Positions 796-25,302 of a DNA stretch of 35,681 nucleotides are shown here, piece after piece. Position numbers and translations under genes: made by a program. Location of the stretch: assembly GCA_030831315.1 (NCBI GenBank), contig JAURLI010000010.1:1-35681 (forward strand), written 5' to 3'. Under the pieces are notes generated by a model. It saw only the letters and a program-made list of their open reading frames with translations, did not search any database and was not told the DNA's origin. How positions within the stretch are numbered: the first letter of the stretch is position 1; each line of letters starts with the position of its first letter. The DNA is from Alphaproteobacteria bacterium. GTDB taxonomy: Bacteria; Pseudomonadota; Alphaproteobacteria; SMXQ01.

Positions 796-807
796 TCAGG
801 GGAGGGC
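792..807 (-). terminator. Small hairpin at the end of the amidohydrolase gene (weak terminator candidate)
   Basis: GCCCTC (792-797) and GAGGGC (802-807) form a 6-bp stem with a 4-base loop that covers the amidohydrolase stop codon at 796-798. No T-run follows on the minus strand, so intrinsic termination is doubtful; it may act with the adjacent 755-790 repeat. Confidence 0.25.
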
Positions 808-1845
808 GTAAAGCCGTGCGGGGTTGGTTTGCAGGATCTTTCGGACGCTGGCGGCAGGCAGATTGCCGTCCTCGGCCATTCTTTTGAGGGCCCCCACCTC
901 GGTCGCCGAATCACGGTGGCCGTAATCGGTGCCGATGATCAGTTGATCGTCGCCGATTTCATCGAGCAACCACGGCAGGTCGTCGGTGCGCTGGGTGGTG
1001 ATGAAGAAGTTGACCCCGGCCATCGGATTTTTGGCCTGATGACCACGGCGTGCCAGCCTGAGGCGCGCCTCGCCCAGCACATAGGGTACCCACTGGGCGC
1101 TGGTTTCGATGAACGCCCAGCGCAGCTCGGGAAAACGGGCGGGAACCTCTTTCTCCAGCAGGCTGCCGAAGGATCCCATGACCGGGAATTTGAAGGTCAT
1201 CATCGAGTTCTGCGGCTGCAACATGTCGTGGTACTCGTAACTGTCGACGCCCGCGTGCAGGCAGATCGGCAGGCCGAGCTCCTGCGCCATCTCGTAGAGC
1301 GGGAAGAAGTAGCGATGCGACAGCAGCCGGTCGCATTCCATGCCGCGCATGAAGATGCCGCAGGCACCGTGCTGCTTGCAGTATTCCAGTTCCTCGCGGA
1401 CCTTGGCCGGGTTGACGAGCGATTGCAGCGGCGGCACCAGCACCCAGCGCAGGCGGTCGGGTGCCTTCGCCCAGATTTCAGCGAGCCAGCGGTTGTAACT
1501 GCGCGAGAGCGCAAAATCGATGTCAGGCTCGCGCGTGATCGGGCGCAGGAACAGGGATGGAAACAGCACCTGGATATCGATGCCGATTTCATCCATGTGG
1601 GCAATCCGTGACGAAACATCGCGCATATCGCGCGATTCGGGGGGCACGTCCTTGCCGACGTTGGTGCGCGACTTGATTTCGCCGTCGATCAGCCAGTAAT
1701 CGCCGGCGCGATTGCCGGGTACGGGCGCGCCGTCGGACGGATCGCGCATCAGCAGCTGCGGGCGGAAGCGTTGTTCGTCTTCGCGCAGGAACGACCATGT
1801 ATAGGGCGTTTCGATCACATGGGCGTCGGCATCGATCGTCGGCAT
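796..1845 (-). CDS. Amidohydrolase family protein (ACMSD/COG2159 type)
   Basis: A 349-residue metal-dependent hydrolase or decarboxylase of the amidohydrolase-2 TIM-barrel family. It opens with the strand-1 metal motif as IDADAHVIE (D7, H9, E12), has the barrel His in LPICLHAG (H197) and the conserved Asp in IIGTDYGH (D307), and ends with the usual NPARLY. The second His of the classical HxH is absent, as in the branch that uses HxxE. Family members include ACMSD, gamma-resorcylate and 5-carboxyvanillate decarboxylases, 2-pyrone-4,6-dicarboxylate lactonase and 4-oxalomesaconate hydratase, all in aromatic catabolism, which fits the setting. The exact substrate cannot be read from sequence. No signal peptide is seen, so it is cytoplasmic. 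It is divergent from the bicupin at 2069 with a shared 223-base upstream region. Confidence 0.88.
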   Translation of the reverse strand: MPTIDADAHVIETPYTWSFLREDEQRFRPQLLMRDPSDGAPVPGNRAGDYWLIDGEIKSRTNVGKDVPPESRDMRDVSSRIAHMDEIGIDIQVLFPSLFLRPITREPDIDFALSRSYNRWLAEIWAKAPDRLRWVLVPPLQSLVNPAKVREELEYCKQHGACGIFMRGMECDRLLSHRYFFPLYEMAQELGLPICLHAGVDSYEYHDMLQPQNSMMTFKFPVMGSFGSLLEKEVPARFPELRWAFIETSAQWVPYVLGEARLRLARRGHQAKNPMAGVNFFITTQRTDDLPWLLDEIGDDQLIIGTDYGHRDSATEVGALKRMAEDGNLPAASVRKILQTNPARLYALP

Positions 1846-2068: not shown

Positions 2069-3304
2069 ATGCCACACGATGAAATCAATTACGCCCACTG
2101 GCACGAGATCACCTCGACCGACAAGAAGGCCGGCAAGGGCTCCTTCGCCACGCCGCCGATGCCTTACGACAAGTTCATGGAAGAAGAGGGCATCCCCGTT
2201 CATCGCGATATCGGCGTGCACCGCGTGCAGGATCTGCCGATGAAGCCGTGGAAGCGGTTGGGCGGCCGGGGCAGCTTCATCCAGCTTTTCGGCACCGAGG
2301 GCCTGTGGGGCTCCTACGTGGTCGAAGTTCCCGGCGGCGGTACGCTGAACACGGAAAAGCACCTCTATGAAGAGCAGTACCTCGTCGTCGAGGGCCGCGG
2401 CACCACCGAGATCTGGCAGGACGGCGGCAAGAAGCAGGTGTTCGAATGGCAGAAGGGCTCCATGTTCGCCATTCCGCTCAACACCAACCACCGGATCATC
2501 AACGCGGCATCGTCGCCCGCCATTCTGCTCGCCGGCACCTCGGCCCCGAATGCCATCAACCTCTACGGCAACGTCGATTTCATCTTCAACAATTCCTACG
2601 TCTTCAAGGACCGCTACGACGGCGCCGACGACTACTTCAAGCCGCGCGACGATCTGGCACCCGATCCCGTGCGCGGCCTTGCCATGCGCAAGACAAACAT
2701 CATTCCCGACATCATGGCCTGCGAACTGCCGCTCGATAACCGGCGCTCGCCCGGCTATCGCCGCATCGAGCCGCACATGGCGGGCAACCGGTTCTATCTG
2801 TGGATCGGCCAGCACGAGACGGGCCGCTATTCCAAGGCGCATTACCACGGCTCGGCCGCGGTGCTCATTTGCGTGAAGGGCAAGGGCTATACCTATACTT
2901 GGCCGAAGGAACTGGGCCCGACGCCGTGGAAGGACGGCAAGGCCGATCAGGTGCGCCGCCAGGATTATGAGCCCGTCGGCATGGTGTCAGCCGCGCCGAT
3001 GTCGGGCGACTGGTTCCACCAGCACTTCGGCATCTCCAAGGAGGCGCTCCGGCTCACCGCATGGTTCGGCCCCAACAACGCACGCGGGCGCAAGCCCGGC
3101 CTGCCCGGGGTCAAGCAGCTGGATGCCGGCGCCATCGACATGCGCGCGGGCGGCAGCGCCATTCCCTACGACATGGAAGATCCCTACCTGCGCAAGGAAT
3201 ACGAAGAAGCCCTCAAGGCCAACGGCGCCGTCTCGCGCATGGAGCCGGAGCTTTACGACCCCAACAATGAAAAGACGCGCGCTTGGGGCGGGGCCGACTT
3301 CTAG
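2069..3304 (+). CDS. Bicupin protein (paralogue 1, divergent member)
   Basis: A 411-residue protein with two cupin beta-barrels. The first (about 80-160) has KHLYEEQYLVVEGRG (H98, E101/E102) and a later NHRI (H141). The second (about 245-330) has AHYHGSAAVLICVKGKGY (H258, H260) and GDWFHQHF (H317, H319), a fuller metal site. The order of domains and the WFHQHF element match the bicupins at 9984, 12557 and 13825, but this copy is longer and diverged. Fe- or Mn-dependent bicupins include gentisate and 1-hydroxy-2-naphthoate dioxygenases; a ring-cleaving or related oxygenase role is an inference from context. The ATG at 2069 follows AAAAGGGAG at good spacing; a longer open frame back to 1844 lacks cupin similarity. 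The SDR gene follows after 17 bases, probably in one transcript. Confidence 0.85.
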   Translation: MPHDEINYAHWHEITSTDKKAGKGSFATPPMPYDKFMEEEGIPVHRDIGVHRVQDLPMKPWKRLGGRGSFIQLFGTEGLWGSYVVEVPGGGTLNTEKHLYEEQYLVVEGRGTTEIWQDGGKKQVFEWQKGSMFAIPLNTNHRIINAASSPAILLAGTSAPNAINLYGNVDFIFNNSYVFKDRYDGADDYFKPRDDLAPDPVRGLAMRKTNIIPDIMACELPLDNRRSPGYRRIEPHMAGNRFYLWIGQHETGRYSKAHYHGSAAVLICVKGKGYTYTWPKELGPTPWKDGKADQVRRQDYEPVGMVSAAPMSGDWFHQHFGISKEALRLTAWFGPNNARGRKPGLPGVKQLDAGAIDMRAGGSAIPYDMEDPYLRKEYEEALKANGAVSRMEPELYDPNNEKTRAWGGADF

Positions 3305-9983: not shown

Positions 9984-11066
9984 TTACGCCTTTGGCTTGT
10001 ATTCCGGCCGCGGCTGATGGACATCAACGCCGTTCTTCTTCAGTTCGGCCGCGTAGGAATCGTAGATCCAGGGATCTTCCTGTTCGTACTCGATCTGGTC
10101 GGGGCCGCCACCTTGGGCCGACATGCCGAGGCGGATCGGATGCTCGGGACTGCCGCCACGACGCAGCGCGAGATAGCGCGCAGGCTCGGCGCCGGTATTG
10201 AAATGCTGGTGGAACCACCATTCGGGCGGTGCAAACAGCGAGTTTTCCTTCCAGTTGACCCGCGTCGGCTTGTCACCCTCCTTCCACAAAAGCGAATAGC
10301 CTTCGCCCGCGAGGATGATGACATGGGCGCCGGGGCCATGCCGGTGGCCCTTCTTGTAGGTGCCGACCTCGAATTCCGACAGGTGGCAGGCCATGGTGTG
10401 GCCCGACATCGACATGTGGAACGACTTGGCAGCGAAACCGCGATCCTTCCAGTTGATCAGGCGGAACTGCAGGGTATCGGGAATGAGGTTGATGCGCGTG
10501 ACACGCCCACCCAGGTATTCGCGCTCGCCGTTGAAGAAGCTGTTCTCGCCCTTGTAGCGGTCATCGAAGACGAAGGTATTTTCGAAGACGTAGCGGTCGT
10601 TGTGATAGAGATTCATCGTCAACGGCGCATTGGTCACCATCAGGATACGCGCCGGACGGTGCTTGTCGTGATTGACATGCTGGTAGGTCGAATTCAGGGG
10701 CGGCCCGAACAGCGCCCGTTTGCCCCAGGGAACGGAATTTGTCGGGCAGCCTTCCTGCTCGATGATGGTTTCGCCCTCGCCCTCGACGATGAAGCACCAG
10801 GTCTCGAACATGTGGCGGATCGGCTTGGTTTTGCCGCCGGGCGCTACCTCGATGATCATCGAGGAGGTAATGAACGGGTCGGCCAGATTGACGAAGGCGC
10901 CGTTGCAGCCGAAGCGTTCCCAGTGACCGAGCTGGACCTGCATCATGTCTTCGATGTGGAAAGCCTCGTAAATCGGGATGCCTTCGCCCTTCTGCCAGAT
11001 CTCGTAGAAGGGCTTAGGGCGGACGAACTTCTGTTCGACCGTGGCGCTGTTCATAGTGTCATTCAA
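9984..11066 (-). CDS. Bicupin protein (paralogue 2)
   Basis: A 360-residue two-cupin protein. The first barrel has RHMFETWCFIVEGEGE (H85, E88) and TYQHVN (H130). The second has KKGHRHGPGAHVIILAGEGY (H241, H243, H248) and WWFHQHFNTG (H286, H288), so the richer metal site is C-terminal. It is closely related to the bicupins at 12557 and 13825. The start is taken as TTG at 11066 because AGGAG lies seven bases before it; the ATG at 11054 is 19 bases from that site. It lies between the solute-binding protein gene and the permease gene of importer 1, tying it to the imported compound. Ring cleavage is possible, as in bicupin gentisate dioxygenases, but unproven. Confidence 0.86.
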   Translation of the reverse strand: MNDTMNSATVEQKFVRPKPFYEIWQKGEGIPIYEAFHIEDMMQVQLGHWERFGCNGAFVNLADPFITSSMIIEVAPGGKTKPIRHMFETWCFIVEGEGETIIEQEGCPTNSVPWGKRALFGPPLNSTYQHVNHDKHRPARILMVTNAPLTMNLYHNDRYVFENTFVFDDRYKGENSFFNGEREYLGGRVTRINLIPDTLQFRLINWKDRGFAAKSFHMSMSGHTMACHLSEFEVGTYKKGHRHGPGAHVIILAGEGYSLLWKEGDKPTRVNWKENSLFAPPEWWFHQHFNTGAEPARYLALRRGGSPEHPIRLGMSAQGGGPDQIEYEQEDPWIYDSYAAELKKNGVDVHQPRPEYKPKA

Positions 11067-11073
11067 CGCGGCT

Positions 11074-11078
11074 CTCCT
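11074..11078 (-). promoter_or_regulatory. Ribosome binding site that sets a TTG start
   Basis: Minus-strand AGGAG at 11078-11074 is seven bases upstream of TTG 11066 and 19 bases upstream of the first in-frame ATG (11054). The spacing favours TTG as the start of bicupin paralogue 2. Confidence 0.6.
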
Positions 11079-11142
11079 TGACTCCGGGCCCTGCGGGCCG
11101 ATTGCTCTTGCGCAGGCGACCCTGCGGTTTCCCTGTTAAACG

Positions 11143-12519
11143 TCACTTGGCGCAGGCAACGGCCGATGCGCTCTGTCCCGGACCGGGATAGGTCACCTTG
11201 CATGACATACCGGCCTTGAGATCGGCCCGGCCCGCCTTGGCTCCGCCAATACTCACCGCCGTGCGGCGCGCACTGATGGTGACCTCGGTTGGCTTGCCCT
11301 GATGGTCGAAAATGATGGTACGGCCCTTGCCCTTGACGCCCGTCAGCCGGACATCGAGGGTCAGCAGCTTCGCGCCGCCCTTGTCACCACCGGCCTTCTT
11401 CCACAGCGGATCGTAATAGGCGATCAGCTTCGGGTACTCGTTGACCAGTTTCGCCTCGTCGCGGATGGCGATGGGCTTGCCTGCGATTTCCTCCGGATAG
11501 GGCATGAATTCCTTGCGGCCGGAGAATTCCTTGCGCACCGAGATGGCCTCGTCCGCATGGAACTGTGCGAGCTGCCCTTCCTTGGACAGGAACCAGTTGG
11601 TGAAAATGAGCGAGCCATACCGATGCGGGTTGTTCTTCAGCACCACAAGGAGCGAGATCGCCAACGGTACCGGCGACGGGCAGTGAAACGCCACCGGGGC
11701 GCCGCGGCTCTGGTATTGGGAGATGCGGTATTCGGCCGCCGCCACCGCCGCGTCGAATTCGCCCGCGATAGTCAATCCGATCATCGCATTAGCGCCTTCC
11801 TTGCGCAGCTGCGGCTTCACGTCGTTGAACAGCTTCGTCATGAAGTCACGCGTCCAGTCGGGACCGTTCTTGAGCCAGAGCATGGAAAGCCAGAGGTTGG
11901 GCCTGTTGGGCACGCCCAGCTTTCCGCCCTGCCAGCGCGGGCTGGTCACCAGATCGTCCCAGGTTTTCGGCAAATCCGCCTTCTTCACCTTGCTGGTGTT
12001 GTAGACCATGCACCTGTAGGCGACCTTCTGGCCGACCCAATGACCGGAGGCTTCGCGCATATCGGGTTCGAGCCGCTGGTAGTTGGGCAGTTGCCGCAGA
12101 TCCTCCAGCGCGCCGATGTCGCGGAAATTCACCCATTCGCCCCCAAGACTGATGATGACGTCGGAAATATAGCGGCCCTGCTTGTAGGCCAGCACCTGCT
12201 TGACGCCGCGGTCATGAAGGCCGCCACGCACGTAGGAAACCTTTACATCCGGATAGCGTGCGCGGAACGGCGCGGCCAGCTTCTGGAACTGTGGCGGATC
12301 CCACGATCCGATGATGTTGACGGCGCCCTCAGCCTTCGCCTTCTCCAGCCATTCGGGCGGAACACGGGCCTCTTCATCCATGCCCGCAACAACGCCCTCG
12401 CCCATCTTCAGGGCCTGCAGGATCGCCTTGGTTTCCGCGGGCAGCCGGTCGGCCGCGTGTGCCGCGGGCGATATGGCCGCAAGGACTAGGCTGCAGATCG
12501 CCAACATCGTCTTTTTCAT
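11143..12519 (-). CDS. ABC transporter solute-binding protein with a C-terminal extension (importer 1)
   Basis: A 458-residue exported binding protein of the ferric/2-aminoethylphosphonate/spermidine-type family. A Sec signal peptide is clear at 1-22 (MKKT, hydrophobic core, AHA cleavage site). The core (about 50-375) shows PEWLEKAKAEGAVNI, the YNTSKV segment and the FTNWFLSKEGQ motif near 306-316 that is typical of the family. Residues about 379-458 are an extra segment of short beta-rich stretches ending RADLKAGMSCKVTYPGPGQ, with a possible C440-C456 pair; this is not part of the usual fold. The ATG has GAGGGAG upstream. The gene lies between two bicupin genes and two genes ahead of the importer 1 permease. 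Substrate likely an aromatic acid or a metal complex; not resolved. Confidence 0.9.
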   Translation of the reverse strand: MKKTMLAICSLVLAAISPAAHAADRLPAETKAILQALKMGEGVVAGMDEEARVPPEWLEKAKAEGAVNIIGSWDPPQFQKLAAPFRARYPDVKVSYVRGGLHDRGVKQVLAYKQGRYISDVIISLGGEWVNFRDIGALEDLRQLPNYQRLEPDMREASGHWVGQKVAYRCMVYNTSKVKKADLPKTWDDLVTSPRWQGGKLGVPNRPNLWLSMLWLKNGPDWTRDFMTKLFNDVKPQLRKEGANAMIGLTIAGEFDAAVAAAEYRISQYQSRGAPVAFHCPSPVPLAISLLVVLKNNPHRYGSLIFTNWFLSKEGQLAQFHADEAISVRKEFSGRKEFMPYPEEIAGKPIAIRDEAKLVNEYPKLIAYYDPLWKKAGGDKGGAKLLTLDVRLTGVKGKGRTIIFDHQGKPTEVTISARRTAVSIGGAKAGRADLKAGMSCKVTYPGPGQSASAVACAK

Positions 12520-12556
12520 CGCTGGGCTCCCTCTTTGTATCGTCGATGGGTCTGGC

Positions 12557-13669
12557 TCAACGCTTACGGTACGCGGGGCGCGGCTGATGGTTCTCGGCGC
12601 TGTTTTTCTTCAGCTCCGAAACGAACAGATCGTAGATCCAGGGCGCTTCGTCCTCGTGCTCGATCTGGTGGTTCTTGGCAAAATCGGGGTCGGTATTGGG
12701 GCCCGGCGCGCCGATGCGGCAGGGATGCTCGGGCGCGCCCTTGCTCTTGAGCGCGAGATAGCGCGCAGGCTCGGGCCCGGTGTTGAAGTGCTGGTGGTAC
12801 CACATGTCGGGAGGGGAAAACATCGAGTTCTCCCGCCAGTCGACCTTGGTCGGCTCCTCGCCTTCCTTCCAGCACAGGGAATAGCCGGTGCCCTGCAGGA
12901 TGATGACATGGGCGCCGGGGCCGTGACGGTGTGCCTTCTTGTAGGTGCCGGGCTCGAATTCCGACACATGGGCACCGATGGTGTGATGGCTCATGCCCGT
13001 CAGGAAAACGGTGCGCGCACCGATGCCGCGCTCCTTCCATTCGTGCAGGTAATAGTCGCGCACATCCTTGACCATGTTGGTGCGCACGTAGCGCTGGGCA
13101 ACGATTTCGTAGGTCGGGTTGAAATACCCCTGTTGGCCCGCGTACCGGTCATCGAAGACGAAGGGGTTTTCGAAGACGTAGCGTTCGTTGTGATAGAGGT
13201 TCATGGTCAGCGGCGCATTGGTCACCATCAGGATGCGCGCCGGTTCCGTGCTGTCGGTGTTATGGTGCTGGTAGGTGCAGTTGAGCGGCGGGCCGAACAG
13301 GGAACGCGGCTGCCATGGGATCACCGTATCGGGGGCGCCATCCTGGCTCACAAGGGTCTCGCCCTTGCCGCCGATGACATAGACCCAGGTTTCGAACATG
13401 TGGCGCACCGGCTTGGTCTTCTGGCCGGGCTTCAGTTCGATGATCATCGAGGTGATCAGGAACGGATCTTCGAGATTGACGAAACAGGCATCGCACCCCA
13501 TCCACTCCCAGCGGGCGAGCTTGACGGCGGCGAGGTCGTCGATATGGAAGCTCGAATAGGTCGGGATGCCCTGTCGCTCCTGCCACAGGTCGTAGAACGG
13601 CTTCGGCCGCTCGAACTTGCGGTCGGTCGCGCCCGCCTGAGAGGCGTTGAAATTGTCGAGTATCGCCAC
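12557..13669 (-). CDS. Bicupin protein (paralogue 3)
   Basis: A 370-residue bicupin closely similar to those at 9984 and 13825. The first cupin has VRHMFETWVYVIGGKGE (H90, E93) and TYQHHN (H135, H136). The second has KKAHRHGPGAHVIILQGTGY (H247, H249, H254) and WYHQHFNTGPEPARYLAL (H292, H294). The start is GTG at 13669, preceded by AAGGGGGG; codons upstream in frame read as an Arg-rich stretch with no counterpart in the paralogues. It is the first gene of the importer 1 operon, 37 bases before the solute-binding protein gene. Likely a metal enzyme acting on the imported compound; dioxygenase activity is inference. Confidence 0.86.
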   Translation of the reverse strand: MAILDNFNASQAGATDRKFERPKPFYDLWQERQGIPTYSSFHIDDLAAVKLARWEWMGCDACFVNLEDPFLITSMIIELKPGQKTKPVRHMFETWVYVIGGKGETLVSQDGAPDTVIPWQPRSLFGPPLNCTYQHHNTDSTEPARILMVTNAPLTMNLYHNERYVFENPFVFDDRYAGQQGYFNPTYEIVAQRYVRTNMVKDVRDYYLHEWKERGIGARTVFLTGMSHHTIGAHVSEFEPGTYKKAHRHGPGAHVIILQGTGYSLCWKEGEEPTKVDWRENSMFSPPDMWYHQHFNTGPEPARYLALKSKGAPEHPCRIGAPGPNTDPDFAKNHQIEHEDEAPWIYDLFVSELKKNSAENHQPRPAYRKR

Positions 13670-13824
13670 ATTCCCCCCTTGCCGCCGGAAGCGGCATCCG
13701 CCCTGCCGCGTTCTTGCCGCGCGGCACCGGGCCAATCCCTTGCTTTATGCAGGCTAACAGCAGGAATAGCCCGTGATTAGAGCCATTCTAGGCAATATTC
13801 CGTTTCCCAACAGGGGTCCTGCGG
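13670..13824. promoter_or_regulatory. Intergenic gap, likely promoter of the importer 1 operon
   Basis: This 155-base gap interrupts an otherwise tight minus-strand run and contains the only locally AT-rich stretch there (about 13740-13810). TAGAAT on the minus strand (13790-13785) could be a -10 element, but TTGGGA upstream is only 14 bases away, so the pair is weak. It probably carries the promoter of the bicupin-binding protein-bicupin-permease operon. Confidence 0.35.
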
Positions 13825-14922
13825 TCAGCCCTGCCGGTAGGCTGGCTTCGCCTGGCGGATCTCGACCCCCTTGCGGGCCAGTTCGGCCGCGTATTCGGCG
13901 AAGATCGCGGGATCTTCGTCGTCGAAGTCGATCTGGGCCTTGCCGAACTGGGTCATGCCGTCGCCCGAATCCTGGAACCGGGGCATGCCCGTACGCAGGG
14001 GATGGACCGGGTTGTTGTTGCGCACGGCAAGATAGCGGGCCGGCTCCTTGCCGGTATTGAAATGCTGGTGCCACCACCACTCGGGCGGCGCGAACATGGT
14101 GCCGGCCTTCCATTCCACCCGCTGGCGGGGCTCGCCGTCGGCCCACAGCAGGGAATAGCCCTCACCGTCGAGCATCACCACATGGGCGCCCGCGCCGTGG
14201 CGGTGCGCCTTCTTGTAGGTACCGACCTCGAAGGACGAAATATGCGCGGCGATGGTGCTGTCGGAGATCGACATGAAGGCGGTCTTGGCCCCCTTGCCGC
14301 GCATTTCCCAGTTGTAGAGCTCGTATTTGCCGACATCGCGGATGTAATTCACCGACGACAGGCGGCTGCCGAGGTATTCGGGGATGCCGTCGAAGAAATT
14401 TTCCTGCCCCTGGTAGCGGCGCTTGAAGGCCCAGTCCGCGCCGAACACGAAATCCTCGTCATGATAAAGGCTCATCACCATCGGCGCGTTGTTGACGACC
14501 AGCAGGCGCGCCGTCGTATCGCCGGTATTGCGATGCTGGTAGGTGGTATTGAGCGGCGGCGCGAACAATGAGCGTTCCGCCCAGGAAATCCTGCGGGTGG
14601 GCGAGCCCTTCTGTTCGACCACCGTCTCGCCCTCGCCCGAAATGATGTAGGTCGTCGCCTCGAACAGGTGATGAACGGGATTGAGCGTCGTGCGCGGCGG
14701 GATTTCGAGAACGAAAGACCCGACGAGGAAGCTGTCGGTCAGGTTGATGAAGCAGCCGTTGCAGCCGAAGCGCTTCCACGGGCCGACCTCGACATCCTTC
14801 AGGTCGGCGACATGGAAGGTCTTGTGGACGGGAATGCCCTCGCTTTCCTGCCAGACGTAGTAGTACTGCGGCGGGCGCTTGAAGACCTTGGCTTCGGGAT
14901 CGTTGGGCGCGGCGTCCGTCAT
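13825..14922 (-). CDS. Bicupin protein (paralogue 4)
   Basis: A 365-residue bicupin. The first cupin has VHHLFEATTYIISGEGE (H84, H85, E88) and TYQHRN (H130). The second has KKAHRHGAGAHVVMLDGEGY (H240, H242, H247) and WWHQHFNTGKEPARYLAV (H285, H287). The ATG at 14922 overlaps the stop of the Rieske oxygenase as ATGA, so the two are translationally coupled and probably act on successive intermediates. This is the strongest contextual hint that these bicupins are catabolic enzymes, possibly ring-cleaving, rather than transport accessories. It is the last gene of the minus-strand operon beginning near 21752. Confidence 0.86.
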   Translation of the reverse strand: MTDAAPNDPEAKVFKRPPQYYYVWQESEGIPVHKTFHVADLKDVEVGPWKRFGCNGCFINLTDSFLVGSFVLEIPPRTTLNPVHHLFEATTYIISGEGETVVEQKGSPTRRISWAERSLFAPPLNTTYQHRNTGDTTARLLVVNNAPMVMSLYHDEDFVFGADWAFKRRYQGQENFFDGIPEYLGSRLSSVNYIRDVGKYELYNWEMRGKGAKTAFMSISDSTIAAHISSFEVGTYKKAHRHGAGAHVVMLDGEGYSLLWADGEPRQRVEWKAGTMFAPPEWWWHQHFNTGKEPARYLAVRNNNPVHPLRTGMPRFQDSGDGMTQFGKAQIDFDDEDPAIFAEYAAELARKGVEIRQAKPAYRQG

Positions 14923-16094
14923 GCACTCTGCCTTTTCTGGTCGCGGGCGACGCGCGCCTGGCCGGTTGATACGTGAATGTCGATGTATTCGTTGAGCTTC
15001 GGATCGCGGATCAGGCCCTTGGGGTCCTTGCCCTCCTGCACGCGCTTGATCTGTTCGCGCAAGAGGCGGCGATAAAGCGCGATACCGGCATCGGATACGC
15101 CCAGGTTCTCGCGCGAACGGTCGGTGATCGCCCCTTGGGTTTCCCACGCCATCGCGTCGTGAGAGGCGAAGCTGTTCATGTGATAGACGCCGTATTCATC
15201 GCGCAGCGGCGGCACGTTCTGGAACGGCACCTGGTTGGGCTGCGGCACCTCGCTGCCGTCTTCGGTGGGCGTGAACTGGTAGCGATAGATCTGCGTGTGG
15301 GTGTCATCCACCGGCAGGCGCATGTGCATGACGAGATGTTCGCGCTGGGGCGACAGCAGGAAGTTCGGGAAGATCACCGGGTGGCCGTCTTCCTCTTCGG
15401 CCTCGTCGCCGCCGTAGATGCGCTGCTTGCGCACGCCGACCCAGTTGGCCTCCTCGACGATCTCGAAATGCATCTTCTCGATCGGGCGGTAATAGTAGGT
15501 ACCCATGTCGCCCTTGCCTTTCAGCACCAGGGTATGGGCATGCAGGTAGTAGGTGTGGCAGGGATCGCAGGAGTTTTCCATCACCTGTAGCCAGTTGCAG
15601 TCGAGCAGCGGCAGGACGTCGATGCGGCGCACACCGTCCTTGCGCAGAAGCTGCGCCCAGCGCGGCAGTTCCGGCGCCTCGCCCGGCCCCATGTAGGTCC
15701 ACAGCATGCCGCCCAGTTCGCGCACCGGGTAGGCGCGCTGGCGTACGTGGTTGATCAGCCTCGTGTCCTTGGGCTCGAACGGCATTTCGATGCACTTGCC
15801 CGTGCAGTCGAACTTCCAGCCGTGGTAGGGACAGCGCAAACCGTCCTCTTCGACGAAACCGTAAAGCAGCGAGGCCGAGCGATGGCAGCATTGCTCTTCC
15901 ACCAGCCCGAAACGGCCCGAGCCGTCGCGAAACAGGACGAGTTCCTCGCCCATCACGCGGATCTTCTTTTTCGGGTTTTCCGCGGTGAGCTCGGCCGCAG
16001 GTCCGACCGGCTGCCAGTAGCGGCGCATTAGTTCCCCCGCCGGCGTACCCGCACCGACGCGCGTCAGTTCGGCATTCTGTTCGTGAGACAGCAT
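14919..16094 (-). CDS. Rieske non-heme iron oxygenase, large subunit (copy 1)
   Basis: A 391-residue oxygenase component of the phthalate 4,5-dioxygenase/vanillate demethylase type. The Rieske [2Fe-2S] ligands are C69, H71 (QCCHR) and C88, H91 (CPYHGW). The mononuclear iron region is NWLQVMENSCDPCHTYYLH with bridging D177 and ligands H180 and H185; a late HDAMAWETQGAITDR stretch carries the acidic ligand region. Compared with copies 2 and 3 it has ENSCDPCH where they have EG(N/E)(I/C)D..H, and TQG in place of ESMG, so it may have a different substrate. Such enzymes hydroxylate or O-demethylate aromatic acids using a separate reductase, which is not in the window. GGAGG precedes the ATG. It is coupled to the bicupin downstream. 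Confidence 0.93.
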   Translation of the reverse strand: MLSHEQNAELTRVGAGTPAGELMRRYWQPVGPAAELTAENPKKKIRVMGEELVLFRDGSGRFGLVEEQCCHRSASLLYGFVEEDGLRCPYHGWKFDCTGKCIEMPFEPKDTRLINHVRQRAYPVRELGGMLWTYMGPGEAPELPRWAQLLRKDGVRRIDVLPLLDCNWLQVMENSCDPCHTYYLHAHTLVLKGKGDMGTYYYRPIEKMHFEIVEEANWVGVRKQRIYGGDEAEEEDGHPVIFPNFLLSPQREHLVMHMRLPVDDTHTQIYRYQFTPTEDGSEVPQPNQVPFQNVPPLRDEYGVYHMNSFASHDAMAWETQGAITDRSRENLGVSDAGIALYRRLLREQIKRVQEGKDPKGLIRDPKLNEYIDIHVSTGQARVARDQKRQSA

Positions 16095-16121: not shown

Positions 16122-16880
16122 CTAGTTTTCGCCTGCCAGCGTCGCGTAGTAGCGCCATGACGACCGGACGTTACCCATCAGCGGCGGCATGGCGCCATCG
16201 GACGCAGTGTTTCCTCCATCCTCCCGACCGTAACCCGGAATGAATGTTTTTATATCTTCGTCGGAAATCGATCGGGGCGTACCCAAAAGATACGCTTCGT
16301 AATTCATTTCCGCCAGTTCGTTGATCTTGATCGCGGCGAGCGTCGCTTCCTCCACCGTCGGTCCGACGGTGGTGATGCCGTGACCGCGCATCAGGCAAAT
16401 GCGTGCGCGGCCCATGGCGGCGGCGAACTCCTCGCCCAAAAGATCGTTCTTTATCAGGATGGCGCGGTCGTAAAGCGCCGGCCCTTCGACGGCAAGCCTC
16501 AGGCCGGTCGGATCGTAAGCACCGAAAATCGGTAAAATCTGTTTTTCCGTAATGGTGAAAAGCACCACGGTTTTCGGATGCACGTGAACGACGCTGTTCA
16601 CCTCGGGCCGCATCCGGTAGAGCCAGGAATGAATGAACACTTCCTGCGGTGCCTTCAAGCCATCCGGGCCGTCGAGTTTCTCGCCGTCGCCATCGACCCG
16701 GATGATTTCACCCGCCGTCGTGTAGCGCACGCCCACTTCGTCGCGCCCGCGCGCGCGCACCAGAAAGCCGCCGTCGCAACGGGCGCTGATATGGCCCGTC
16801 GCTGCCTTGGTCAGCCCCAGATTGCCGATGATGCGGCAGGCCTTGGCGACCAGTTCGCGTTGTGCGGCGAATGCATCCAT
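16122..16880 (-). CDS. Class II aldolase/adducin family protein (copy 1)
   Basis: A 252-residue zinc-type enzyme of the class II aldolase fold. The metal ligands are H99 and H101 in VVHVHPKT and H167 in RGHGITT; the catalytic Glu is E80 in PQEVFIH. The usual SGNIS phosphate-binding loop is changed to TGHIS, suggesting a non-phosphorylated substrate. Members include sugar-phosphate aldolases and epimerases, but also decarboxylases of hydroxylated aromatic acids such as 3,4-dihydroxyphthalate decarboxylase, which suits this cluster. ATG 16880 gives the conserved N-terminus; an upstream extension lies within the preceding gene. It follows the RraA genes after 13 bases and precedes the Rieske gene by 27. 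Confidence 0.85.
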   Translation of the reverse strand: MDAFAAQRELVAKACRIIGNLGLTKAATGHISARCDGGFLVRARGRDEVGVRYTTAGEIIRVDGDGEKLDGPDGLKAPQEVFIHSWLYRMRPEVNSVVHVHPKTVVLFTITEKQILPIFGAYDPTGLRLAVEGPALYDRAILIKNDLLGEEFAAAMGRARICLMRGHGITTVGPTVEEATLAAIKINELAEMNYEAYLLGTPRSISDEDIKTFIPGYGREDGGNTASDGAMPPLMGNVRSSWRYYATLAGEN

Positions 16881-16893
16881 CGCGCCCGCCGCC

Positions 16894-17535
16894 CTACTTC
16901 GGCAACGGCGCCCAGCCGTAAAGCTCGATTGTCGACTTGCCCTGCTTGAGCGAGGCGATGGTGCGCGCTTCCTTGTCCTCGCGCGACTGCGAAGCATCAA
17001 GCGCGGCCTTCGCAGCGCCCTGCGGAATGACGACGACACCGTCGCGGTCGCCGTTGATGATGTCGCCGGGCGCCACATCGACATTGCCGATGCGGATCAA
17101 TTGCGCCAATGAGCCGCCTTCGTCCTTGGTCGTGCCCTGGATGGCGAGGCCACGCGAGAACACGGGGAAACCGATCTCTTCCAGAAGGTCGGCATCGCGC
17201 ACGCAGGCATCGATCACCAGACCGGCGAGCCCGCGCTGCTGCGCGGCATGGGCCATGATTTCCCCGAAGTAACCCGCTTCAAACCCGCCGCCGCAATCGA
17301 CCACCAGAATGTCGCCGGGCTTGGCCTGGTAGATGGCGCGATGGATGTTGATGTTGTTGAAGGCCTTGGCCACCACGGTGAAGGCCGGACCGCAGATCTT
17401 CCATGAATTGGACACCGGCTTGATTGCCGCAGGCAACGCCCCCTTGCGGCCCATCGCCTCGTGAATGGTCGCCGACGGGAAGGTCGCCGCCCGCGCGATG
17501 GTGGCCGCATCGGGCCGGAGAAAATCGAAACTCAT
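16894..17535 (-). CDS. RraA-family aldolase-like protein (tandem copy A)
   Basis: A 213-residue RraA/MenG-like fold protein. The active-site Arg-Asp pair is R113-D114 in DACVRDAD, and Glu92 lies 20 residues before the Arg, giving an E-X20-R-D pattern in place of D-X20-R-D known for 4-hydroxy-4-methyl-2-oxoglutarate/4-carboxy-4-hydroxy-2-oxoadipate (HMG/CHA) aldolases. Other family landmarks are CGPAFTV, KPGDILVVD and PVFSRG. HMG/CHA aldolases make pyruvate and a keto acid at the end of protocatechuate and gallate 4,5-cleavage. This copy is the most diverged of the three (it has FNNINIHRAIYQA where the others differ). AGAGG precedes the ATG, five bases after the neighbouring stop. Confidence 0.85.
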   Translation of the reverse strand: MSFDFLRPDAATIARAATFPSATIHEAMGRKGALPAAIKPVSNSWKICGPAFTVVAKAFNNINIHRAIYQAKPGDILVVDCGGGFEAGYFGEIMAHAAQQRGLAGLVIDACVRDADLLEEIGFPVFSRGLAIQGTTKDEGGSLAQLIRIGNVDVAPGDIINGDRDGVVVIPQGAAKAALDASQSREDKEARTIASLKQGKSTIELYGWAPLPK

Positions 17536-17539
17536 GGCG

Positions 17540-18193
17540 TTACCTCTTTGTCTGCAGATTGTGATAGCCGTGCTTCTTGCGGGCATCGACCAGCTTCGCG
17601 CCCGCCCTGACTTCGGCGACGATGCGGGCCTCGGCTTCGGCCACCGCAGTGGCGATGTCGAGGACATCCTTTTCCTTTTCCACCGGAACCACCAGCACGC
17701 CGTCGTCGGAGCCCACGAGGATGTCACCCGGGCGCACCTGCACGTCGCCGAGCGACACGGTGACGTTGGTGCCGTCCACCTCGACCCGGTCCTTGCCCGT
17801 GCGCATGAAGCGCCCGCGCGAAAAGATCGGATAGCCGACCTCGAGCGAGCCGGCAACGTCCCTGCACACGCCATGGATCACGGTGCCCGCAACCCCGCGT
17901 GCTTTCGCCGTGGTCGTCAGGATATCGCCCCATACGGTGCAATCGAGACGCCCCGCATTGTCGAGCACCACCACGCCGCCCGGAGGCACGTCGTCGATGT
18001 AATCGCCGACCGTTCCCTTGACGATTCCGCAGGGCCGGTACTTCAGGGTGAAGGCGCGGCCCACGACGTGATGGCCGTTGGCGAGCGGCGCAATGCCCTG
18101 CGCCATGCCGTGAATGCCGAGCCGGTCGAGCGCGTCGGAGATCGACGCACTGGCGAGCTTCTTGAAACCTTCGATAACGGGATCGGTCGTCAT
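17540..18193 (-). CDS. RraA-family aldolase-like protein (tandem copy B)
   Basis: A 217-residue RraA-like protein. D90-X20-R111-D112 (WGD to GVCRDV) matches the D-X20-R-D pattern of HMG/CHA aldolases, so of the three tandem copies this is the best candidate for a true pyruvate aldolase. Family landmarks are SISDALDRLG near 18, RAFTLKYRP, PPGGVVVLD and YPIFSRG. The ATG is one base after the stop of copy C (TAAAATG), so translation is coupled. Known relatives are cytoplasmic, oligomeric and Mg/Mn-dependent. The activity is inferred from motif and context only. Confidence 0.88.
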   Translation of the reverse strand: MTTDPVIEGFKKLASASISDALDRLGIHGMAQGIAPLANGHHVVGRAFTLKYRPCGIVKGTVGDYIDDVPPGGVVVLDNAGRLDCTVWGDILTTTAKARGVAGTVIHGVCRDVAGSLEVGYPIFSRGRFMRTGKDRVEVDGTNVTVSLGDVQVRPGDILVGSDDGVLVVPVEKEKDVLDIATAVAEAEARIVAEVRAGAKLVDARKKHGYHNLQTKR

Positions 18194-18194
18194 T

Positions 18195-18863
18195 TTATTT
18201 CTTGTCCTTGTTGAGCATCTGTTCGTAGCCGCCGCTTTCCATCACGTGGACGATGGACGCACCCTTGCGCACCGCATCGGCCATGCGCGCCTCGCGGGCA
18301 GCGATTTCCTCGCCCTTGGCGATGACCTCCTCGGCGCGGGCCTGCGGCACGATGATCGTGCCAGAACCGTCCGCGACGACGTAATCGCCGGGGTGAACCT
18401 GCACGCCCGCGAACTGGATTTCCTCGTTCACGCTGTCCTGGATGACGCGCCCGCGCGCGGTGATCGGCACCACGCCCTTGGCATAGACCGGGAATTTCGC
18501 CGCTGCGGAATCATCGATGTCGCGACACGCCCCGTCGATGACGATGCCGGCAAGCCCCTTGGTCGCGGCGGCCAGCGACAGCAGCCCGCCCCAGCCCGGC
18601 ACATCGGTGCGCCCGGCCAGTTCCATCACCAGGACGTCGCCCGGTTCCGCCGCCTCGATCGCCTCGGTGCCGAGGTGACGGGTGGGCTTTTCCACCCCCT
18701 GCGGCTTCAGCTTCACGGTGACCGCGCGCCCGGCGATGCGCGGGCACGGCCACTGCGGACGAATGCCGAGCGTTGCTCCCTTTATGCCAAGCGCATCGAG
18801 CGCATCCGATACGGTGCAGGCATCCAGTTTCGAAAGGCGCTCGACCAGCGCGTCACGTGCCAT
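18195..18863 (-). CDS. RraA-family aldolase-like protein (tandem copy C)
   Basis: A 222-residue RraA-like protein with G93-X20-R114-D115-X2-D118 (DGACRDIDD), the variant pattern with Gly in the position of the aldolase Asp. Other marks are TVSDALDALGIKG, RAVTVKLKP and EPGDVLVME. The start is ATG 18863 with GGGAGA about eight bases upstream; a GTG at 18878 would add five residues with no clear ribosome site. It follows the importer 2 permease by 55 bases. It may be an aldolase, decarboxylase or a regulator-like protein; in plain RraA of E. coli this fold binds RNase E, so the name RraA does not prove aldolase activity. Confidence 0.87.
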   Translation of the reverse strand: MARDALVERLSKLDACTVSDALDALGIKGATLGIRPQWPCPRIAGRAVTVKLKPQGVEKPTRHLGTEAIEAAEPGDVLVMELAGRTDVPGWGGLLSLAAATKGLAGIVIDGACRDIDDSAAAKFPVYAKGVVPITARGRVIQDSVNEEIQFAGVQVHPGDYVVADGSGTIIVPQARAEEVIAKGEEIAAREARMADAVRKGASIVHVMESGGYEQMLNKDKK

Positions 18864-18918
18864 TTGGCAATCTCCCACGGACCAGAATTTTCCTAGACGT
18901 TATCACAGGACGGTGCGT

Positions 18919-24386: not shown

Positions 24387-24404
24387 GGGCGGCTCACGCC
24401 GCCC
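24387..24404. terminator. Bidirectional terminator-like hairpin
   Basis: GGGCGGC (24387-24393), loop TCAC, GCCGCCC (24398-24404), followed by TTT on the plus strand. It lies 3 bases after the stop of the binding protein gene, and its loop contains the stop codon of the convergent LigB-type gene. The T-run is short, so strength is uncertain. Confidence 0.5.
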
Positions 24405-25302
24405 TTTCCCAGACGGCAAAGCCCATGGCGCAGCCCACACCCTGCGGGCTGCGGTAGCACGGGACGTAATCGACCATGGCGCCGCCCGCACCCGCCGCCG
24501 CCGCTGCGATCATCCAGTTGCGGATTTCGGAGGTGCCCGCGGTCAGGTCCTCGTCGCGCATGGCGGCCATGAAATCTAGGTCGCCCTTTTCCAGCGCGGC
24601 GATGAAGTCGCGGTCGAGCTTTTCGTCGATCTTGGTATGGCTGAGCCCGCCTGAGCCGATAAAAACGACGCGCTCGGCCGCCGTTGTTGCGCGGGCAGCG
24701 GCGCCAAGCACGCGGCCGAAGGCGACGCAGCGCGCCGCGCTCGGTGCCGGCGGGAAATAGGTGTTCACCATTACGGGCAAAATCGGCACGTCCGCTTTCG
24801 GCAGGATGAATTCGAGCACGCGGCCAAAGGCATGGCCGAGGCCCCCCTCCATCCGCGTCACTTTCGACCAGGACGGGTCGAAACCCGCCGCCATCAGCGC
24901 CCCCAGCATTTCCCTTGCCAGCGCGCCGTTGGCCTTGTAGTGGCGCGACTGGTTTTCGAGCGAGGTACCGAAGTAGCGGTACTTGCGCGTCGCGTCCACC
25001 TCGTCGCCAATGAACAGGGTGAAGGGTGGCATGTTGTCGTCCAGCATGTTCTCGTGCTGATCGTCGCCGATGATAACGATGGTGTCGGGACGCCACGATT
25101 CGAGCCTGTCGCGCAGCGTGGCGATGGCGGCGTTGCAGCGGGCTTCGTGGGCGCGCATCGCCTCGGGCGTGATTTCAGCCTCGATTCCGGGCTTCGGGTT
25201 GAACGGCCCCCGCGCGCGCCCCGGCAATTCCGCCCATTTGTCCGCAGGCGTCAGCAGTTGCGGACTGTGGGACATGGCCATGCAGCCGACGATCTTCGCC
25301 AT
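24394..25302 (-). CDS. Class III extradiol ring-cleavage dioxygenase (LigB type)
   Basis: A 302-residue protein of the LigB family (protocatechuate 4,5-dioxygenase catalytic chain and relatives). Iron ligands are probably H12 (MSHSP), H83 (GDDQHENM) and E259 (TSEIRNW); the catalytic His is H222 in GSGGLSH. It would insert O2 into a catechol-type ring next to a hydroxyl. No LigA-type small subunit gene is adjacent, so it could work alone, as in some one-chain members, or borrow a subunit encoded elsewhere. Possible substrates are protocatechuate, gallate or related dihydroxybenzoates; not decided by sequence. The ATG follows GGGAGGAAAAAGAGA. It is divergent from the importer 3 operon. Confidence 0.88.
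   Translation of the reverse strand: MAKIVGCMAMSHSPQLLTPADKWAELPGRARGPFNPKPGIEAEITPEAMRAHEARCNAAIATLRDRLESWRPDTIVIIGDDQHENMLDDNMPPFTLFIGDEVDATRKYRYFGTSLENQSRHYKANGALAREMLGALMAAGFDPSWSKVTRMEGGLGHAFGRVLEFILPKADVPILPVMVNTYFPPAPSAARCVAFGRVLGAAARATTAAERVVFIGSGGLSHTKIDEKLDRDFIAALEKGDLDFMAAMRDEDLTAGTSEIRNWMIAAAAAGAGGAMVDYVPCYRSPQGVGCAMGFAVWERAA

Follow-up and report, generated by a model that had tools for sequence, protein, structure and literature searches.

We have described here a family of two-domain cupin proteins (bicupins), four of which are encoded in a 35,681-nucleotide stretch of DNA from an alphaproteobacterium (contig JAURLI010000010.1 of assembly GCA_030831315.1; the whole stretch is referred to as the window). 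The family is real and large, is undescribed as far as the literature searched shows, and is outside every characterised family tested. The conserved site of metal-binding type is that of the C-terminal cupin (C-cupin) and not that of the N-terminal one (N-cupin), and metal binding by these proteins is likely. We rate at about even the chances that the bicupins, having their active site in the C-cupin, are distant relatives of the three-histidine Fe(II) ring-cleaving dioxygenases of the gentisate and salicylate type and act in Rieske-led catabolism of aromatic acids, some of them maintained by an EutA-type ATPase. What is new here is the conservation of the bicupin genes in tandem triplets together with their link to EutA; a literature search found no paper on the bicupin family or on a bicupin with EutA. 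The bicupin genes of the window, and the gene lying among them, are as follows.

2069-3304, plus strand: bicupin BC4, of a divergent subgroup; Pfam Cupin_2 once
9984-11066, minus strand: bicupin BC1, 360 residues, C-cupin residues H241, H243, H286 and H288; Cupin_2 twice
11143-12519, minus strand: extracellular solute-binding protein (SBP_bac), between BC1 and BC2
12557-13735, minus strand: bicupin BC2, start uncertain, with homology from about 13654; Cupin_2 twice
13825-14922, minus strand: bicupin BC3, beginning within the Rieske stop codon (ATGA); Cupin_2 twice

BC2, BC3 and BC4 share 59%, 50% and 29% identity with BC1, and Pfam recognises mainly the generic Cupin_2 domain in all four. A sequence-only reading of the window had reported three related bicupins, a solute-binding protein, an ATGA overlap with a Rieske gene and a fourth bicupin at 2069, and the open reading frames confirm each of these, with the overlap at 14922-14919 joining the Rieske stop to the BC3 start. 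We also note that the solute-binding protein genes interleaved with this triplet number one in the window (9984-14922), two in genome G005 and none in genome G001 (loci L043 and L027), which suggests that the operon gains and loses them.

The case for a metal site comes from residue conservation over 95 non-identical copies (48 for the first histidine of N-cupin motif 1, position 83; BC1 numbering is used throughout). In the C-cupin, H241 and H243 (HxH) are present in 90 of the 95 copies, H286 and H288 (HQH) in all 95 and Arg297 in 94, so that the HxH...H facial triad of the three-histidine cupin dioxygenases is found in this domain. The N-cupin is different: the first motif-1 histidine is missing from 48 of 48 copies, and what is retained is His85 (83/95), Glu or Asp at position 88 (94/95) and His130 (56/95). 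The sequence-only reading had stated that every C-cupin keeps HxH...HQH, which is seen in all four window copies, and that the N-cupin shows an H..E pair and a lone His. The pair (H85 and E88) is indeed present in all four, the first motif-1 His being absent from each, but the lone motif-2 His is found only in BC1-3 (H130); BC4 has Ile at that position and a His two residues earlier, which is therefore not homologous to H130.

In gentisate dioxygenase (GDO) the ligands are the N-cupin residues His119, His121 and His160, with Gln108, His162 and Asp175 around them (PMC4019311); H288 of the new C-cupin aligns with His162. The earlier description of the layout as reversed is apt insofar as the conserved site lies in the C-cupin, but a C-terminal position alone is not unprecedented, since homogentisate 1,2-dioxygenase is active through its C-terminal cupin (PMC4019311) and S. 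pomeroyi GDO has a second metal site in its C-cupin (PMC4019311, PMC10306065).

Structure prediction suggests that the nearest folds are those of gentisate and salicylate dioxygenases (GDO/SDO). AlphaFold2 models built with eight sequences gave a pLDDT of 78.1 and pTM of 0.81 for BC1, and 69.7 and 0.77 for BC4. Alignment of the BC1 model with VIA places all GDO/SDO entries at the top (Z 20.3-21.4, the next family, vicilin, being at 19.1); for BC4, GDO/SDO are again at the top (Z 18.9-19.8 versus 18.6) with other bicupins close behind, and Z differences below 1 are ties. A profile search of solved structures returns GDOsp (3bu7) first, matched C-cupin to C-cupin with an E value of 2.2e-10.

Several observations weigh against a dioxygenase of this type. 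Where GDO has Arg127 and Gln108, the aligned C-cupin residues are Val249 and Ser230, positions that are mostly Val/Ile/Leu and Ser across the copies, and five of the 95 copies lack HxH at the aligned position. The curated GDO model TIGR02272 gives 19.0 bits at best, with BC3, against a cut-off of 442, and the model for MabB, a 5-aminosalicylate dioxygenase (NF049978), 35.7 bits against a cut-off of 650. Foldseek ranks oxalate decarboxylase first, the cupin fold and His triad are also found in isomerases, decarboxylases and lyases, and none of the four window bicupins has an EutA neighbour. Placement in a known, characterised family was looked for, and no score above 35.7 bits was obtained; membership of the GDO, MabB, homogentisate dioxygenase or oxalate decarboxylase families is excluded by model scores and ligand positions. 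The suggestion that these proteins form a new oxygenase group keeps its support from their position outside curated families, their GDO/SDO-like fold and their aromatic-acid context, and loses some from the replacement of Arg127 and Gln108.

Oxalate decarboxylase and isomerases use the cupin Glu ligand. This bears on the possibility that the bicupins are metal-dependent non-oxygenases, acting as decarboxylases, isomerases or lyases on products of nearby Rieske, LigB or UbiD-type enzymes. The Foldseek ranking fits such a role, as do weak profile matches to glucose-6-phosphate isomerase and auxin-binding protein, and UbiD or CoA-pathway enzymes take the place of the Rieske gene at many bicupin loci. 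However, the C-cupin lacks Glu where such a ligand is usually found, position 248 in 94 of 95 copies being occupied by His, Val, Asn, Ile, Tyr, Ala or Phe, and the more careful structural alignment, by VIA, favours GDO/SDO, so we regard a non-oxygenase function as unlikely, if not strongly so. It is quite improbable, in our estimation, that the bicupins are non-catalytic, as binding, sensing or storage-type cupins within aromatic catabolism operons. The degenerate N-cupin, the presence of seed storage proteins among the top folds and the loss of the C-cupin HxH in four copies adjoining EutA would agree with this, but the triad and Arg are near-invariant over 95 diverged copies and the neighbourhoods are those of catabolic operons. 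Of the five copies lacking HxH, one is a truncated or misaligned row and four are true losses; these four, from family f180 and each adjoining EutA (L069, L075, L078 and L097), have YxP in place of HxH and keep HQH, and their metal site has possibly been lost. Oxygen-dependent cleavage of a ring or C-C bond is more likely than any single rival, with a probability that we put near one half.

The relationship between the two cupins offers a further view of the supposed reversal. Scores between domain profiles are 80.6 for the new N-cupin with the GDO C-cupin, 64.1 for new C with GDO C, 43.4 for new C with GDO N and 34.5 for new N with GDO N, the N/C pairs within each family both exceeding 103. 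The highest cross-family score would fit a simple exchange of roles relative to GDO, yet the new C-cupin is also nearer to the GDO C-cupin than to the GDO N-cupin. In a domain tree the new N- and C-cupins are joined with support of 100/96, apart from both GDO cupins, although alternative topologies are not rejected in approximately unbiased tests (p 0.24-0.29). An independent cupin duplication in the new bicupins is the best reading of these sequence comparisons, albeit unproven, and the reversed layout, if understood as a swap of domain roles, may not hold.

Gene linkage points strongly to a functional tie between the bicupins and EutA. Several genes neighbouring bicupins were identified as EutA, and all 17 of the bicupin-bearing genomes have two to six EutA matches (PF06277), with 43 strong loci in total (L068-L110). 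At 36 of these 43 a bicupin lies within 1.5 kb, on the same strand in 32, where about 3% would be expected; the corresponding binomial figure takes no account of kinship between the genomes and says no more than 'not chance'. Two of the seven unlinked loci have a contig end close by. At least four alphaproteobacterial families retain the pair, and there are plasmid clusters with two pairs. BC4 relatives mostly adjoin EutA, and BC4 itself does not in the window. EutA is the caretaker of a B12 enzyme. If it served here as the ethanolamine ammonia-lyase reactivase, EutB should co-occur, but EutB was found in 0 of the 17 genomes and EutA in 17 of 17.

The same linkage, absence of EutB and conservation of the pair across families, with two pairs per plasmid cluster, would also be expected if bicupin and EutA-like ATPase were one ATP-dependent enzyme system in which EutA is essential, for example for ATP-driven exchange of metal or inhibitor or for substrate activation, with copies such as BC1-3 using an EutA encoded elsewhere. 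Each genome has only two to six EutA matches, however, while its bicupin matches number as many as 31, so most bicupins are without an adjacent EutA, and we consider an essential role improbable. Nickel dependence, for which NikR/HoxN genes beside one pair were a candidate indication, was dropped, these being not conserved in S. mexicanum or at other loci.

Tandem sets of three bicupins recur at several loci with genes for haem-oxygenase-like diiron proteins (PF14518), one type also with EutA genes. The triplets adjoining such genes (L029, L031, L041, L042, L046 and L047) are of two conserved types, one of which ends in EutA. In the tree, the triplets of the window and of G005 pair position by position within one clade, and two other triplet types are made of different old paralogues; this placement suggests that triplets arose on more than one occasion and were retained thereafter. 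An arrangement of one active and two dead subunits is argued against by the retention of the C-cupin triad in nearly all members.

The source genome (2.70 Mb in 89 contigs) has 21 full-length bicupin homologues, and again 21 by profile, and each of the 11 genomes sampled from its order gives 6-31 matches, a few of them partial, so the observation goes far beyond chance. A chimeric or contaminated bin was ruled out because the same expansion recurs in 11 genomes. Homologues outside the order are rare: matches occur in 12 of 385 genomes of a class sample, and in a phylum sample no genome besides the source had any, a lower bound given that four candidates were scored per genome under a strict cut. 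One other family, f180, has about six to seven full copies per genome, and Sinorhizobium and Phyllobacterium plasmids have two each; no bicupin relatives were found in the viral contigs searched. Among named relatives, Dino_bin8 comes from Centrosaurus bone (PMC8067395), and the name prefix of A5-S04_155 fits samples of a ferromanganese-nodule sediment study (PMC10367259). We note that Rieske domains are likewise expanded, with 7-33 per genome (G000-G010, 2.4-4.1 Mb).

The surroundings of the window bicupins include the following genes.

796-1845, minus strand: amidohydrolase family 2 protein
14919-16094, minus strand: Rieske oxygenase of the phthalate 4,5-dioxygenase type (7fhr, E 2.8e-59; LigXa_C)
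16122-17084, minus strand: class II aldolase family protein, nearest to 3,4-dihydroxyphthalate decarboxylase PhtC (190.9 bits, cut-off 200), with the domain from about residue 70
16894-17874, minus strand: RraA-like aldolase, passing the 4-carboxy-4-hydroxy-2-oxoadipate aldolase model (189.3 versus 179 bits), with the real start at about residue 110 of the open reading frame
17540-18193, minus strand: second RraA-like gene
18195-18878, minus strand: third RraA-like gene
24394-25302, minus strand: LigB-type (class III extradiol) dioxygenase

G005 has a gene set matching this pathway set. A similar set is seen in a core cluster common to the Phyllobacterium and Sinorhizobium plasmids, where a Rieske gene with those for ferredoxin and reductase is accompanied by class II aldolase, RraA and amidohydrolase genes and two bicupin-EutA pairs. 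Such surroundings support a predicted role in catabolism of an aromatic-dicarboxylate-like compound, the substrate being inferred. A set of three genes that includes a Nuo51-type FMN/Fe-S subunit (formate-dehydrogenase-like) was also seen near bicupins in two families (L032, L040, L060 and L066).

The dioxygenase reading suggests a plausible course of events. Fe(II) would be held by the C-cupin triad H241, H243 and H286, and a hydroxylated aromatic acid, which the partner Rieske oxygenase has produced or trimmed, would chelate it. Activation of oxygen and cleavage of the ring or of a C-C bond would follow, and enzymes of the decarboxylase, amidohydrolase and RraA-aldolase types encoded alongside would take over the products. 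The N-cupin may have a mainly structural role, and the paralogues, often in fixed threes, could divide a range of substrates or successive steps among them. For many loci beyond the window, where ethanolamine ammonia-lyase is absent, maintenance or reactivation of the bicupin is probably the task of an EutA-type ATPase. A bolder proposal, which we think fairly unlikely, is that of a new class of cupin oxygenases with a C-cupin site and a cupin duplication of its own, which relies on an EutA-type ATPase dedicated to its reactivation or to metal exchange and serves an uncultured alphaproteobacterial order as a large toolkit of tandem triplets. Should the dioxygenase reading hold, an entire branch of metalloenzymes that cleave rings or C-C bonds, present in as many as about 31 copies per genome, awaits assignment in lineages from fossil bone and deep-sea sediment, among others, and EutA would have a testable second job in genomes without its B12 enzyme.

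Of the known systems, GDO and SDO (3bu7, 2d40 and 2phd; TIGR02272) share with the new bicupins the bicupin fold, the HxH...HxH three-His motif, the His162 equivalent and the aromatic-acid context, but the new proteins have their site in the C-cupin, have lost that of the N-cupin and have replaced Arg127 and Gln108. MabB provides their best NCBIfam match, via one cupin, although far below its cut-off. Homogentisate 1,2-dioxygenase is likewise a bicupin with a C-terminal active site, but of the 2-His-1-carboxylate type, whereas in the new C-cupin the motif consists of three His, and Glu is missing from its usual place. Nor is the 3-His-1-Glu site of oxalate decarboxylase and quercetinase matched, quercetinase having a Glu ligand in its cupin site (PMC4019311). 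The 5-nitrosalicylate 1,2-dioxygenase (8ch4) is also a three-His cupin dioxygenase, but is a monocupin and is matched via GDO-like paralogues only; in this enzyme ring cleavage persists despite changes at Arg127 and His162 (PMC10306065). The EutA-like partners match the ethanolamine ammonia-lyase reactivating factor over its full length, with up to 414 bits, but differ in their linkage to bicupins in genomes without EutB and in scoring below the NCBIfam equivalog cut-offs. Finally, the same genomes have, adjoining new-type bicupins, GDO-like ones whose N-cupin shows the canonical His triad together with Gln, Arg and Asp; these score 230-252 bits on TIGR02272, also below its cut-off, and examples beside new-type bicupin and haem-oxygenase-like diiron protein genes are at L042:5570-6811, L045:5813-6922, L045:11500-12519 and L030:4375-5430. 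These GDO-like paralogues are a built-in contrast to the new bicupins.

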